DNA from: Spirochaetales bacterium Spiro_02
GTDB taxonomy: Bacteria > Spirochaetota > Spirochaetia > Sphaerochaetales > Sphaerochaetaceae
Length of the DNA: 47,240 bases
NCBI GenBank assembly: GCA_001604275.1
Contig: LVBD01000006.1
Location: 1 to 47,240, forward strand
Direction: 5' to 3'
The translations under genes and the position numbers were made by a program. Position 1 is the first letter of the stretch; every line of letters begins with the position of its first letter. Below the pieces are notes generated by a model. It was not told the origin of the DNA, searched no databases, and saw only the letters and a program-made list of their open reading frames with translations. This document shows positions 12,514-44,780 of this stretch, one piece after another.

Positions 12514-13410
12514 TCAGCTTCTCAGCGCGACGAACCGTTCGAACCATGACCGATATTCCCCGATATGCCGGCTTCCCTTCAAGCAGACGAAATGAAACGC
12601 CCGCAGGACAGTGAAATCCTCCATGGCGATGCGTATCAGCGAACCTTCGTCCAATTCTTTTTTCGCAGCGGCTTCGTAGAGGAACGTAATGCCTACGTCG
12701 TCACTCACCAGCGTCTTGATCGCATGCATGTTCCCCACTTCGCAGTATCTGGAAAAACTTTCGACGGAGAGGTTCCGTTCCCACAGAAGACGCTCGAGGA
12801 TATCCCGGGTCCCCGACCCCTGCTCGCGAAGGATCACCCTCCGTCCCAGCAGGTCATCGAATCGGACGGATTTGCCGACAAGATCCGATGTCGGCCCGCA
12901 CACCGCGATGAATGGCTCTTCCGAAAACAGCGACCATTCATAGCGTGCTTTGTCGAAGAACCCCTCGATACAGGCGAAATCGATTTCACCCGCATGCAAC
13001 TTTGCGAGCAACGTCTGCGTGTTGCCCACCTGCATGTGGAATTCCATATCCGGATCCTGACGGATGCATCGGCTGAGGATAGGAGGCATTACGTACTCGC
13101 CGATGCTCAACGTCGCGCCGAACGACACGCTTCGTACGGAATCGTCCATCCTGAGAAGCGCCTGCAGTTCATGGGCGCTGTCCGCCGAAGCCACCGATAC
13201 ATATTCCAGCAGTCGTTCGCCCCGCTCCGTCAACGAAAGCACCCTGCCGTGACGTTCGAACAACCGGCCGCCGTACAGGTCCTCCAAAAACTTGATGTGT
13301 TGGGAGACCGCAGGTTGCGTGATATGCAGATATTCGGCGGTCTTCGTGTAGTGTCCAATCCTGCACAGGGCCAGGAATGTCTCGTGTCTGAAATCGATCA
13401 TTGCAACCAT
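12514..13410 (-). CDS. LysR-family transcriptional regulator (YeiE/CysL-like)
   Basis: A 298-residue LysR regulator with an N-terminal winged helix (TKTAEYLHITQPAVSQHIKFLEDLYGGRLFER) and a substrate-binding effector domain from about residue 90. It is divergently placed next to a YeiH-type transporter, the arrangement seen for YeiE/yeiH and similar pairs, so it probably activates or represses that gene in response to a small anion or metabolite. Start codons at 13410 and 13401 are both possible; neither has a good ribosome-binding site. The C-terminus is complete. Confidence 0.88.
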   Translation of the reverse strand: MVAMIDFRHETFLALCRIGHYTKTAEYLHITQPAVSQHIKFLEDLYGGRLFERHGRVLSLTERGERLLEYVSVASADSAHELQALLRMDDSVRSVSFGATLSIGEYVMPPILSRCIRQDPDMEFHMQVGNTQTLLAKLHAGEIDFACIEGFFDKARYEWSLFSEEPFIAVCGPTSDLVGKSVRFDDLLGRRVILREQGSGTRDILERLLWERNLSVESFSRYCEVGNMHAIKTLVSDDVGITFLYEAAAKKELDEGSLIRIAMEDFTVLRAFHFVCLKGSRHIGEYRSWFERFVALRS

Positions 13411-13503: not shown

Positions 13504-14595
13504 ATGAATTCGATCAAAACATATGGCGCAGGGCTTGCGCTGACTGCCGTTCTCGGGATCTTCGCAACGTATATCAGCGATTTCATTCCATATCATCTGA
13601 TCAGCGCAGGGGTGTTCGCGCTGTTGATCGGCATGGCGTTCAACCCGCTCGTCGTGAGAGCTTCCATGCTCCGTACGGGAATCGGTTTCGTTTCGAAACA
13701 GGTGCTTCGTCTTGCCATCATACTGATGGGTGCCACGCTGAGTTTCACACAGGTCCTCGAAGTGGGCAGGTTCTCGCTGTTCGTGATGTGCTTCACGCTG
13801 GCCACGGCGTTCGGAGGCGGGTATCTTCTGGGAAAAGTCTTCAAGATGGACTGGAAACTGTCAGGGTTGATATCGGCGGGGACGGGAATCTGCGGAGGTT
13901 CTGCGATCGCGGCGATCGCACCTGTGATCGATGCCCCGGACAAAGACATAGCCTATGCGATTTCTGCGACATTCCTCTTCGATATCCTCATGGTGATCCT
14001 CTTTCCCATAGCCGGTCGATATTTCGGCATGAGCGACATGGGCTACGGACTGTGGGCGGGGACGGCGGTCAACGATACTTCGAGCGTCGTAGCGGCAGGA
14101 TATGCGTTCTCAGACGCCGCCGGAGCATATTCGGTCATTGTGAAACTGACACGCACGCTGTCGATCATCCCTACGGTCATGGTGTTCTCGTTCATCAACG
14201 CACGGTGCAATGCAAAAGCCGAAATATCGGATATGCAGGTCGTTGCGGAGGCGACGGGAACCGACGGACCGACGGCGATGGCGGATACGGGCGGAATAGG
14301 AGAAAACCGGAAACGAAAAGCGATCGGGCTTAGGAAGATCTTCCCCTACTTCATCCTGTTGTTCCTGCTGATGGTCGCGCTCAAGAGCATGGGGCTGGTC
14401 CCCGCCTCTGCAAGCGGCACGATCTCCTCCATATCGAAATTTCTCATGGTGATGGCCCTCGGAGCCATCGGGTTGAAAACGAATTTCAAAGAAGTAGCGA
14501 CCTCCGGATGGAAACCCATGTTGCACGGATTCCTGATTTCAGCCCTCGTGGTCGTCGTGGCCTTCCTCGTACAGATGATGCTCGGGCAAATGTAA
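13504..14595 (+). CDS. YeiH-family putative sulfate/anion exporter
   Basis: A 363-residue polytopic inner-membrane protein of the YeiH family (PF03601), with about ten hydrophobic segments and the family motifs TGIGFVSKQVLRLAI and SAGTGICGGSAIAAIAP in the core. A hydrophilic loop around residues 235-280 carries Lys/Arg residues. The family is annotated as putative sulfate exporters, and experimental support is limited. GGAGG precedes the ATG by about 6 nt, with an extended -10 (TGCTATCAT) shortly upstream. Regulation is probably by the divergent LysR protein. Confidence 0.85.
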   Translation: MNSIKTYGAGLALTAVLGIFATYISDFIPYHLISAGVFALLIGMAFNPLVVRASMLRTGIGFVSKQVLRLAIILMGATLSFTQVLEVGRFSLFVMCFTLATAFGGGYLLGKVFKMDWKLSGLISAGTGICGGSAIAAIAPVIDAPDKDIAYAISATFLFDILMVILFPIAGRYFGMSDMGYGLWAGTAVNDTSSVVAAGYAFSDAAGAYSVIVKLTRTLSIIPTVMVFSFINARCNAKAEISDMQVVAEATGTDGPTAMADTGGIGENRKRKAIGLRKIFPYFILLFLLMVALKSMGLVPASASGTISSISKFLMVMALGAIGLKTNFKEVATSGWKPMLHGFLISALVVVVAFLVQMMLGQM

Positions 14596-15135: not shown

Positions 15136-15924
15136 CTATGAACGGAGTATCTGCCGAAGGAACTCCTTGGTACGTTCCTGTTCTGGCGCTTCGAACATCT
15201 TTTCGGGAGGTCCCTCTTCAAGGATCACCCCGTCGTCCATGAACACCACACGGTCGGCGACTTCCTTGGCGAACCACATCTCGTGGGTCACCACGACCAT
15301 CGTCATCCCGTCCTTCGCAAGGGAAGTCATGACATTCAGCACCTCCCCCACCAGTTCGGGATCGAGGGCGCTGGTCGGTTCGTCGAACAACATGATCTTC
15401 GGTTCCATCGCCAATGCTCTGGCTATCGCCACGCGTTGCTTCTGGCCACCGGACAACATCGCCGGATAGACATCCGCTTTCTCCTCCAGTCCGACCTTGG
15501 CAAGCAGTTCTTCAGCTCTCTCCCGCGCCCGGGCTTTCGGCATGCCTTTTACGTGCACCAGCCCCTCCATCACGTTCCCGGCGACCGTCATATGGGGAAA
15601 GAGATTGAACTGCTGGAACACCATACCGAGCTCCTGACGGACTTTGTTCAACTGCTTTTCCTGGTTTCTGATCCGCTTCCCTTCGATATGGATTTTGCCG
15701 GCCTTCGCTTTTTCCAGGAAATTGATGCACCTGAGCAACGTGCTCTTGCCGCTTCCGGAAGCGCCGATGATGACCACCACCTCGCCCTGCATCACCTCAA
15801 GATCGATATGTTTCAAAACCTGGAGATCACCGTACCATTTGCTGAGATGTTCGATTCTCAGAATCGGTTCCGTCCGAGGATCGAATTCCTTCGGATCGTT
15901 CTGCGTCACTGTTTGATTATCCAC
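15136..15924 (-). CDS. Polar amino-acid ABC transporter, ATP-binding protein (GlnQ-like)
   Basis: A 262-residue ABC ATPase with Walker [11 protein letters not shown]-loop [13 protein letters not shown], signature LSGGQKQR, Walker [15 protein letters not shown] and the switch His in VVVTHEMWF. The spacing matches GlnQ/HisP-type importers. A 20-residue charged N-terminal extension precedes the core. It overlaps the permease by 8 bases and powers uptake of an amino acid delivered by the adjacent binding protein. Confidence 0.93.
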
Positions 15925-16585
15925 GATCGCTCACCTTCAACTTCCTTTCTATCCTGTGCATCACGAACGACAGCAGACTGGTCATAATCAGATACCAGAT
16001 CCCGACGATCAGGAACATCTCCATGTACATGAACGTGGAAGATCCCATCTGCCTTCCCTTGAGCATCAGCTCAGGCACGGCGATGGTCGATGCCAGCGAA
16101 CTATCCTTCAATGCGATGATCAGCTGGTTGCCCAGCGATGGCACAGCCCGCTTGAACGCCTGTGGCAGGATGATCCGTACCATGGCTTTGCTCCCGGACA
16201 TGCCGAGACTGCGCGCGGCTTCCATCTGTCCGTAATGGATCGACTGGATCGCACCTCTGAAGATCTCGGCGATGTACGCGCCATTGTGCACTCCGAGGGC
16301 GATGACCGCGGACGGAATCGGATCGATCGTCACCACAGTCGTCAGACCATAATAGACGATGAACAGCTGAACCAGCAGCGGAGTGCCCCGGATGAGGAAG
16401 ATGTAGCCTCTGCACAGACCGGATAGCACAGGATTTCTGCCGATGCGGCCGAGGGCGACCAGCAGTCCGACCACCAGCCCGAGGATGATGCCGAAGAACG
16501 TGATCTGCAGCGTATACCCGGCGGCGTCGGCGAACAGGAAGAACTTCTGGGGGATGACGCTCAGATCCCATGGCAATAGCTTCAT
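15917..16585 (-). CDS. Polar amino-acid ABC transporter, permease
   Basis: A 222-residue inner-membrane permease of the HisM/GlnP type with about five hydrophobic segments and the EAA loop [28 protein letters not shown] that contacts the ATPase. There is one permease gene, so it probably works as a homodimer, as in GlnP-type systems. It lies 3 bases after the binding-protein gene and overlaps the ATPase gene. Confidence 0.93.
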
Positions 16586-16588
16586 ACG

Positions 16589-17377
16589 TTACCGAACCGT
16601 AATGTCTTGTCCGTCGAACCACTTTTCGCTGATCGCGCGAAGCGTGCCGTCTTCCCGCATATCACGGAGAATGGCATCGACCTGCGCCCGAAGCGCGTCC
16701 GCATCGTCACGGAATGCGATCCCCATTTCTTCCGAACGGAGAACCGAACCTGCCAGCGTCAGAGCATCGCCCCCTTTCATCTTTCCGATGGCGTTCAGGC
16801 CGACGATTCTATCGGTCAGAACCCCGTCGACACGGCCGTTGAGCAGTTCGATCAACGTCTGGTTGTCGTCTTCGTAGAGCTTGACCTGGACTCCAAGGCG
16901 CTTCGCATCTTCTTCGAAGGTCGTTCCGGTCACTAAGGCGATGACGGAATCGGCGGTCAGTTCGGAAGAATCGGATATTCCGCTGTCGGTCCGTACGATC
17001 AGCTGCGGACCGCTATAATAATATGGAATGGAAAAGTCTACGATCTTTTCACGTTCCTCGGTAATGCCCATGCTTCCGAGGATGCCATCGTACCGTCCGG
17101 CGCGAAGTCCTTCGATGATTCCGTCCCATGCGGTGGTCTTGTATTCCATCGTCTTTCCAAGCCGGTCGGCGATAGCCTGGGCGACATCGACATCGAAACC
17201 GATGACCGCTCCGGTATCGTCGATATAGTTGAACGGAGGATATCCTCCGGATCCGGCGAACGAAATCGTCTGCGAAGCGGATTCCGCCTGCCCTGATGCG
17301 AAAACCATGGAAATCGCCGCAAGGGCGAATACCATGCAAGACAGGGCCGCTCGTCGATACATTCTCATTCTTTTCAT
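16589..17377 (-). CDS. Amino-acid ABC transporter substrate-binding protein
   Basis: A 262-residue periplasmic binding protein of family SBP_bac_3. The N-terminus has a signal peptide with a basic start, a hydrophobic core (ALSCMVFALAAISMVFA) and a cleavage region ASGQ typical of spirochaetes. Family motifs are PPFNYIDDTGAVIGFDVDVAQAIADRLGK and GILGSMGITEEREKIVDFSIPYY. The ligand is probably a polar amino acid; the exact one is not readable. AGGAG precedes the ATG at 17377. It is the first gene of the SBP-permease-ATPase operon. Confidence 0.93.
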   Translation of the reverse strand: MKRMRMYRRAALSCMVFALAAISMVFASGQAESASQTISFAGSGGYPPFNYIDDTGAVIGFDVDVAQAIADRLGKTMEYKTTAWDGIIEGLRAGRYDGILGSMGITEEREKIVDFSIPYYYSGPQLIVRTDSGISDSSELTADSVIALVTGTTFEEDAKRLGVQVKLYEDDNQTLIELLNGRVDGVLTDRIVGLNAIGKMKGGDALTLAGSVLRSEEMGIAFRDDADALRAQVDAILRDMREDGTLRAISEKWFDGQDITVR

Positions 17378-17556
17378 ATATACTCCTTGAAATATTGTGT
17401 CTCTTTCATGGTAATGATTTATATAGCTTTTTTATAGTACTATTGATTTTATATATTTATATATAAATAATTACATACACTCGAAACACAAACAGCAACA
17501 GTATATTAAATCAAAATAACTGACTATAATTCAGATATTTATATAGAATTATCATG
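17378..17556. other. AT-rich divergent intergenic region
   Basis: About 180 bases, far more AT-rich than the rest of the window, with runs of alternating A/T around 17450-17480. It should hold the promoter of the amino-acid transporter operon on the - strand and the upstream region of the transposase-like gene on the + strand. No single promoter stands out from the many AT-rich hexamers. Confidence 0.5.
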
Positions 17557-17589
17557 TTTCTCCATGTTATAATTTATAACATGGAGAAA
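17557..17589. promoter_or_regulatory. 33-bp perfect palindrome containing a promoter and the start codon
   Basis: Bases 17557-17572 (TTTCTCCATGTTATAA) are the exact reverse complement of 17574-17589 around a single central base at 17573. The palindrome contains an extended -10 (TG at 17565-17566, TATAAT at 17568-17573) ending 7 nt before the ATG at 17581, so transcription would begin at the start codon. By symmetry the other strand carries TATAAA 7 nt before an ATG. A 15-16-bp hairpin could also form in any read-through transcript and hide the start codon. The sequence is not repeated at the 3' end of the gene. Confidence 0.8.
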
Positions 17590-44729: not shown

Positions 44730-44760
44730 AAAAAAAGGTCTCGCACTTGGCGAGACCTTT
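44730..44760 (-). terminator. Rho-independent terminator of fusA
   Basis: On the - strand AAAGGTCTCG (44760-44751) pairs with CGAGACCTTT (44743-44734) around a 7-nt loop, followed by further T residues from the run at 44730-44736. It lies about 20 bases after the fusA stop. Confidence 0.9.
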
Positions 44761-44780
44761 TCCACTGTCGTGAGGAGAGG

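Follow-up and report, generated by a model that had tools for sequence, protein, structure and literature searches.

A palindrome over the start codon of a transposase-derived gene as a putative autoregulatory operator in Sphaerochaetaceae

In the spirochaete genome of Spirochaetales bacterium Spiro_02, a perfect 33-bp palindrome covers both the promoter and the start codon of a transposase-like gene. What does such a symmetric sequence do at this place—does it mark the end of a mobile element, hide a start codon in RNA, or serve as a binding site for a protein, perhaps the gene product itself? We addressed this question for the window, a 47,240-nucleotide stretch of contig LVBD01000006.1, and for relatives of the gene in other genomes. 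The features needed below are as follows.

15136..15924, minus strand: ATPase of a polar-amino-acid ABC transporter operon
15917..16585, minus strand: permease of the same operon
16589..17377, minus strand: substrate-binding protein of the polar-amino-acid ABC transporter, the divergent neighbour in all orthologs
17378..17580, no strand: divergent intergenic region of 203 bp, common to the P0001 gene and the ABC operon
17557..17589, no strand: proposed operator, a perfect 33-bp palindrome (16+1+16), TTTCTCCATGTTATAA-T-TTATAACATGGAGAAA
17562..17572, minus strand: left half-site TTATAACATGG, whose complement gives most of the -10 box
17564..17582, no strand: conserved operator core ATGTTATAA-T-TTATAACAT, with the form ATGCTATAAATTATAACAT in 13 orthologs
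17565..17573, plus strand: extended -10 TGTTATAAT of a leaderless promoter, read directly
17574..17584, plus strand: right half-site TTATAACATGG, overlapping the start codon
17581..19128, plus strand: transposase-derived protein P0001, 515 aa, IS1634 family (NF033559 match), Tn5-like fold

A perfect palindrome spanning promoter and start codon

The sequence is exactly as the first-pass annotation had described it, with 16-bp arms around one central base, a T. It is the top inverted repeat of the window. Given a local AT content of 79% and loops of 0-12 nt, the expected number of 16-bp arms is 6e-5 for the 203-bp intergenic region, or about 0.013 for the whole window were all of it equally AT-rich; 300 shuffles of the intergenic sequence gave no arm longer than 10. 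Expected counts and shuffles thus rule out a chance origin. Within the 2.6-Mb genome the palindrome is single-copy; the only site with up to three mismatches to the inverted core is 17564..17582 itself, and the two exact copies of TTATAACATGG are the two palindrome arms.

On the plus strand, the ATG at 17581 follows the extended -10 by 8 nt, which is the right spacing for a leaderless transcript, as had been proposed; no clear -35 was seen for this promoter. The gene has in-frame ATGs at 17554 and 17581, and the ortholog L052 (MEKIFSKPRII vs MEKKKTKPRII) supports a start at the latter. The minus strand does carry the reported TATAAA and ATG (CAT on the plus strand) at equal spacing, though the frame opened there is just eight codons long. 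The symmetric promoter therefore probably follows from the symmetry of the palindrome and nothing more. Also in agreement with the first-pass annotation, the arms are absent from the 3' end of the gene; the reading as a terminal repeat or element end is ruled out, there being neither a second copy nor a terminal inverted repeat (TIR). Beyond the conserved core, the palindrome of the window continues into outer arms (TTTCTCC/GGAGAAA), which may provide extra contacts or be a product of quasi-palindrome correction.

A transposase-derived gene fixed beside an ABC transporter operon

The gene product is transposase-like, as claimed: P0001 matches NF033559 (IS1634 family) with 102.6 bits and its best relative, P0002, with 111 bits (cut-off 100). 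Identity to relatives did not exceed 33% in the first 61 genomes searched; a single-protein query of genome contigs returned none, and it took a scan based on alignments to find them. The predicted structure (pLDDT 81) matches Tn5 transposase across some 320 residues with a Z of about 15; the whole transposase fold appears to be retained in it, and some 80 additional residues at the N-terminus form a beta-rich domain. A search for solved structures related to P0001 by sequence gave no hit.

Where mobile members of the family read FDITS...DRGFYS...E, the aligned P0001 reads FIVAPS...GRNSY...E. The DDE triad is not intact: the first aspartate is replaced by I178 and the second by G253, while E417 is kept. 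At the second position all 16 of 16 relatives carry N and the window protein G; fifteen relatives still have the first aspartate, which L052 and the window protein have lost. Judged from these residues, P0001 is probably catalytically dead. The element ends are likewise gone, as no terminal inverted repeats were detectable: for the window gene, and for nearly all of its orthologs, the best end match did not exceed that of shuffles. Two orthologs (L044, L045) gave matches slightly above their own shuffles, located within the coding sequence and devoid of a TIR tip.

Orthologs occupy an equivalent locus. The best relative, from another genus, is divergent from the same ABC operon, and a search of 139 genomes of the family returned 16 orthologs besides the window gene, or 18 genomes in all when a gene cut by a contig end (in G132) is counted. 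Synteny is strict: 17 of 17 complete orthologs adjoin the operon, while the mobile relatives do not. The operon's binding protein was found in 21 genomes, in 18 of which the transposase-derived gene lies beside the operon, always divergently; three genomes (G123, G032 and G152) have the operon without the gene, and the gene without the operon was not found among the genomes searched. The gene thus shows no sign of mobility, with one copy per genome and a position fixed in 18 genomes.

In a tree with 38 mobile rows, the 17 complete orthologs group together as a single clade (support 100/100). The branch of the window protein is long (1.55), and since that of L052 is long as well, the deep placing of both within the clade is unsure. 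Frames are open in 17 genomes, and dN/dS values of 0.04-0.17 indicate strong purifying selection (pairs with dS of 0.03-3.2, the higher values being near saturation). Catalytic activity thus probably disappeared early while selection maintained the protein, which points to domestication. An immobile single-copy gene in a conserved place, it has probably long been retained by the host, as a domesticated transposase and putative local regulator.

Elsewhere in the window's genome, a further IS1634-like gene (L004, G000 C3:52811-54202) has undetectable TIRs and an altered motif, NMDQEFYS, and may be a second immobile copy. A contig end of the same genome (L003 1-62, contig C20) carries, beside a different IS1634-like gene, 62 bp identical to the left end of L023, an IS1634-family element present in several copies in another genus; this identity suggests a recent between-genus exchange of this insertion sequence.

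Half-sites in orthologs and in mobile IS1634 elements

The first-pass annotation had staked its reading on the palindrome's presence upstream of close homologues, and there it is kept, in imperfect yet recognisable form. In 13 orthologs, GAATGCTATAAATTATAACATG over the start is invariant though protein identity drops to about 52%. These orthologs also carry a second copy of TTATAACATGG at -82, about 60 bp further upstream, at a position that corresponds to the inner part of the left end in mobile elements. Invariant positions amount to 22/22 in the operator—part of these 22 nt being the -10 and the ATG—and to 9/11 in the second upstream half-site, against 58/155 in the rest of the intergenic region. 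More distant orthologs have the imperfect forms CATGTTATATTTTCTAACATG, CATGTTATAAATTGAACCATG and TTGTTACAATTTATAACAT, each with at least one near-perfect half-site. No second upstream half-site was seen in the intergenic region of the window. The ends having been lost in the window lineage, the resemblance of half-site to end is there limited to the TIR-like upstream copy in orthologs.

The half-site is nearly restricted to this locus. In G144, G149 and G127, TTATAACATGG occurs just as the two intergenic copies, in G002 as these two plus one elsewhere, and in G129 as one plus one; the inverted core with at most one mismatch is confined, in the other genomes searched, to the locus of the P0001 ortholog. 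This argues for a site dedicated to one locus rather than for a regulon. At the divergent transporter promoter, AATTGTAACA, located at about -163 relative to the gene start, is invariant in L037-L049 and could be a third half-site or merely an extended -10, TGTTACAATT, on its complement. A TTGTAACA element related to the half-site is conserved at the transporter promoter in most orthologs and degenerate in the window. With the window's upstream sites degenerate, self-control is the safer claim than control of the transporter.

Mobile relatives hint at what the half-sites are. True mobile members of the IS1634 family, found in many phyla, have an inverted repeat across the -10 box of their transposase gene. 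Their ends consist of CCTAAATTCCCG, about 7 nt and an inner block resembling TTATAACTATG, and the promoter repeat varies between lineages together with this inner end block. The sequence shared by inner block and promoter repeat is given here by lineage.

L010: GTTTAGCA
L015: CATAACGAG
L024: TTATAGTTA
L029: TGTACATA
L153: TATGACTA
L154: TAACTAC
L155: AATTGTAACTATG

We compared terminal and promoter repeats in a permutation test over 26 IS lineages with less than 65% protein identity to each other. A lineage's own terminal repeat matched its own promoter with 9.81 matched positions, compared with 7.58 for foreign pairs, a value above all 20,000 permutations (p<=5e-5); the right end alone, more than 1.3 kb away, gave 9.38 for own and 7.10 for foreign pairs. 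Own ends matched no better than foreign ones in L144, L160, L060 and L152. Taken across the 26 mobile lineages, the promoter half-sites resemble the end sequences of the transposase.

A phylum-wide NF033559 search returned mostly another subfamily, which was left out of the statistics except for L071 and L080, poorly defined lineages kept in a set of 28. In 23 of these 28 lineages (about 9 expected) the -10 box lies within the promoter palindrome, and the complement of the half-site, CATAGTTATAA, itself provides TATAA(T); transposase binding would therefore directly block RNA polymerase. Arm spacing among IS lineages ranges from 0 to about 14 nt; a rigid dimer operator does not explain this variability, which is the chief observation at odds with it. 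In the promoter regions of two Bacteroidales IS1634 members (L100 and L102), a single inverted copy of the terminal-repeat block TATGGTTATA overlaps TATATTTG, which resembles the Bacteroidetes -7 promoter box.

That the palindrome might be a dimer operator, perhaps for the gene product itself, had been offered by the first-pass annotation as one candidate. It is now the best-supported reading, because the promoter repeat equals the inner TIR block, a likely transposase-binding site, across the family. We consider it probable that the palindrome is an autoregulatory operator of two half-sites, kept by a domesticated and probably catalytically dead transposase turned local regulator. In the scheme that we propose, mobile IS1634 elements would have a sigma-70 promoter with its -10 within two inverted copies of the inner TIR block, presumably bound by transposase, whose occupancy there would shut its own promoter. 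The window lineage has lost ends and catalytic residues, the gene being retained by the host in single copy and immobile. A P0001 dimer would sit on the palindrome with one subunit per TTATAACATGG half-site and keep RNA polymerase off the -10 and the leaderless start, such that self-repression would hold the P0001 level constant; more speculatively, it might act further on the transporter promoter via upstream sites. Binding, dimerisation, repression and any transporter effect are what we infer from sequence patterns.

Competing explanations and known systems

The main rival is an RNA device of the IS10/IS50 type, likewise raised by the first-pass annotation: in read-through transcripts a hairpin would hide the start codon, while the gene's own leaderless transcript would start inside the repeat and escape. 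The window RNA does form a 15-bp hairpin over the AUG (-19.7 kcal/mol, z -3.0), several mobile relatives have the start codon in the 3' arm, and a variable loop length is compatible with such a device. Arm mismatches (six G.T, two A.C, four other) lean towards RNA, though the excess is not significant. However, the hairpin is strong solely in the window copy and weak in L050 and L051, and in the 13 orthologs of group g3 RNA folding is generally no stronger than that of shuffled sequences despite the invariant DNA, so a start-hiding hairpin is not conserved as RNA. In about half of the IS lineages, read by eye, the start codon and Shine-Dalgarno lie downstream of the repeat. Nor does the device predict arms that copy terminal repeats. 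The suggestion thus stands for the window copy and some mobile relatives and fails for the orthologs and for lineages whose start and Shine-Dalgarno lie outside the repeat. Shuffle-like ortholog folding rules out a pure RNA hairpin as the general explanation, which G.U pairs in a few mobile relatives had favoured; overall we regard the RNA device as improbable, with a dual DNA/RNA role possible in some elements.

Two further readings are less probable still. Repeat and gene could be functionless remnants of a dead insertion, conserved merely as -10 and start codon; absent terminal repeats, two missing catalytic residues and the long branch of the window protein (1.55) would fit. Yet the low dN/dS, the open frames and the strict synteny all speak against decay, and the second half-site is conserved while being neither promoter nor start codon, which leaves this account very unlikely. 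A shade less likely even than this, the palindrome might be the operator of a different dimeric protein that controls the divergent ABC operon, the gene product playing no part. The divergent intergenic location suits that idea, as does the typical use of palindromes by dimeric repressors; on the other hand, the equivalent architecture in mobile relatives tracks each element's own terminal repeats, and a half-site nearly unique to the locus is not the site of a regulon.

An autoregulatory operator of a transposase-derived protein has partial parallels. The P0001 lineage resembles the IS1634 family (IS4-related DDE transposases, NF033559) in protein family and in the position of the promoter inverted repeat, and differs from its elements in having no terminal repeats, two replaced aspartates and a single copy fixed in 18 genomes. 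The closest solved fold is the Tn5/IS50 transposase (Z about 15; 13.2 for Inh, 1b7e). Inh of Tn5/IS50 is a precedent for a non-transposing form with a regulatory role, but it is the N-terminally truncated product of an active element, whereas P0001 is full-length, has its own gene and has lost catalytic residues. With IS10/IS50 read-through protection the locus shares a start codon and own promoter inside an inverted repeat; unlike there, the arms here copy the inner terminal-repeat block and the RNA fold is not conserved in orthologs. Many eukaryotic transcription factors derive from DDE transposases.

Among bacterial cases, TldR proteins are RNA-guided transcription factors related to TnpB, transposon-derived regulators of bacterial genes (PMC13418256). 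Like the P0001 lineage they descend from a transposon and were reused for (here putative) regulation, but P0001 is a DDE transposase and should read DNA directly. Mu Ner/SfsB is a mobile-element DNA-binding protein recruited as a host regulator (PMC8987985); Ner, however, was already a helix-turn-helix repressor, while in the P0001 lineage it would be the transposase itself that was recruited. For co-opted regulators, the same review of prokaryotic mobile-element recruitment turns to helix-turn-helix repressors and antitoxins; the term DDE is absent from its main text (PMC8987985). The accessible portions of two IS1634-family papers cover family definition and beta-clamp binding and mention no operator or self-control (PMC2266710, PMC4549789); in that of the latter, the family is called poorly characterised (PMC4549789). 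The literature searched, which lacked most subscription papers, describes no regulator in bacteria that arose from a DDE transposase.

If P0001 does bind, it would represent a bacterial regulator derived from a DDE transposase with intermediate stages visible, from mobile relatives that already have the operator through a clade without catalysis to a fixed regulatory position. The broader proposition—that a nuclease-dead, full-length DDE transposase acts as a bacterial transcription factor for itself and the transporter through sites descended from its ancestral transposon's ends, and that mobile IS1634 elements self-regulate via operators derived from the inner part of their ends—we hold to be about evenly balanced. 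The rule that the promoter repeat equals the inner end block would predict binding site and self-control in the IS1634 family from sequence alone.

Other parts of the window offer minor observations. No known RNA families or tRNAs were found in it. Its second-best inverted repeat (AAAAGGTCTCGCACTTGGCGAGACCTTTT, 44733-44761) has arms of 12 bp and resembles an intrinsic terminator that works in both directions. The genes of a LysR-type regulator (12514-13410, minus strand) and of a putative sulfate exporter of the YeiH family (13504-14595, plus strand) are divergently oriented.
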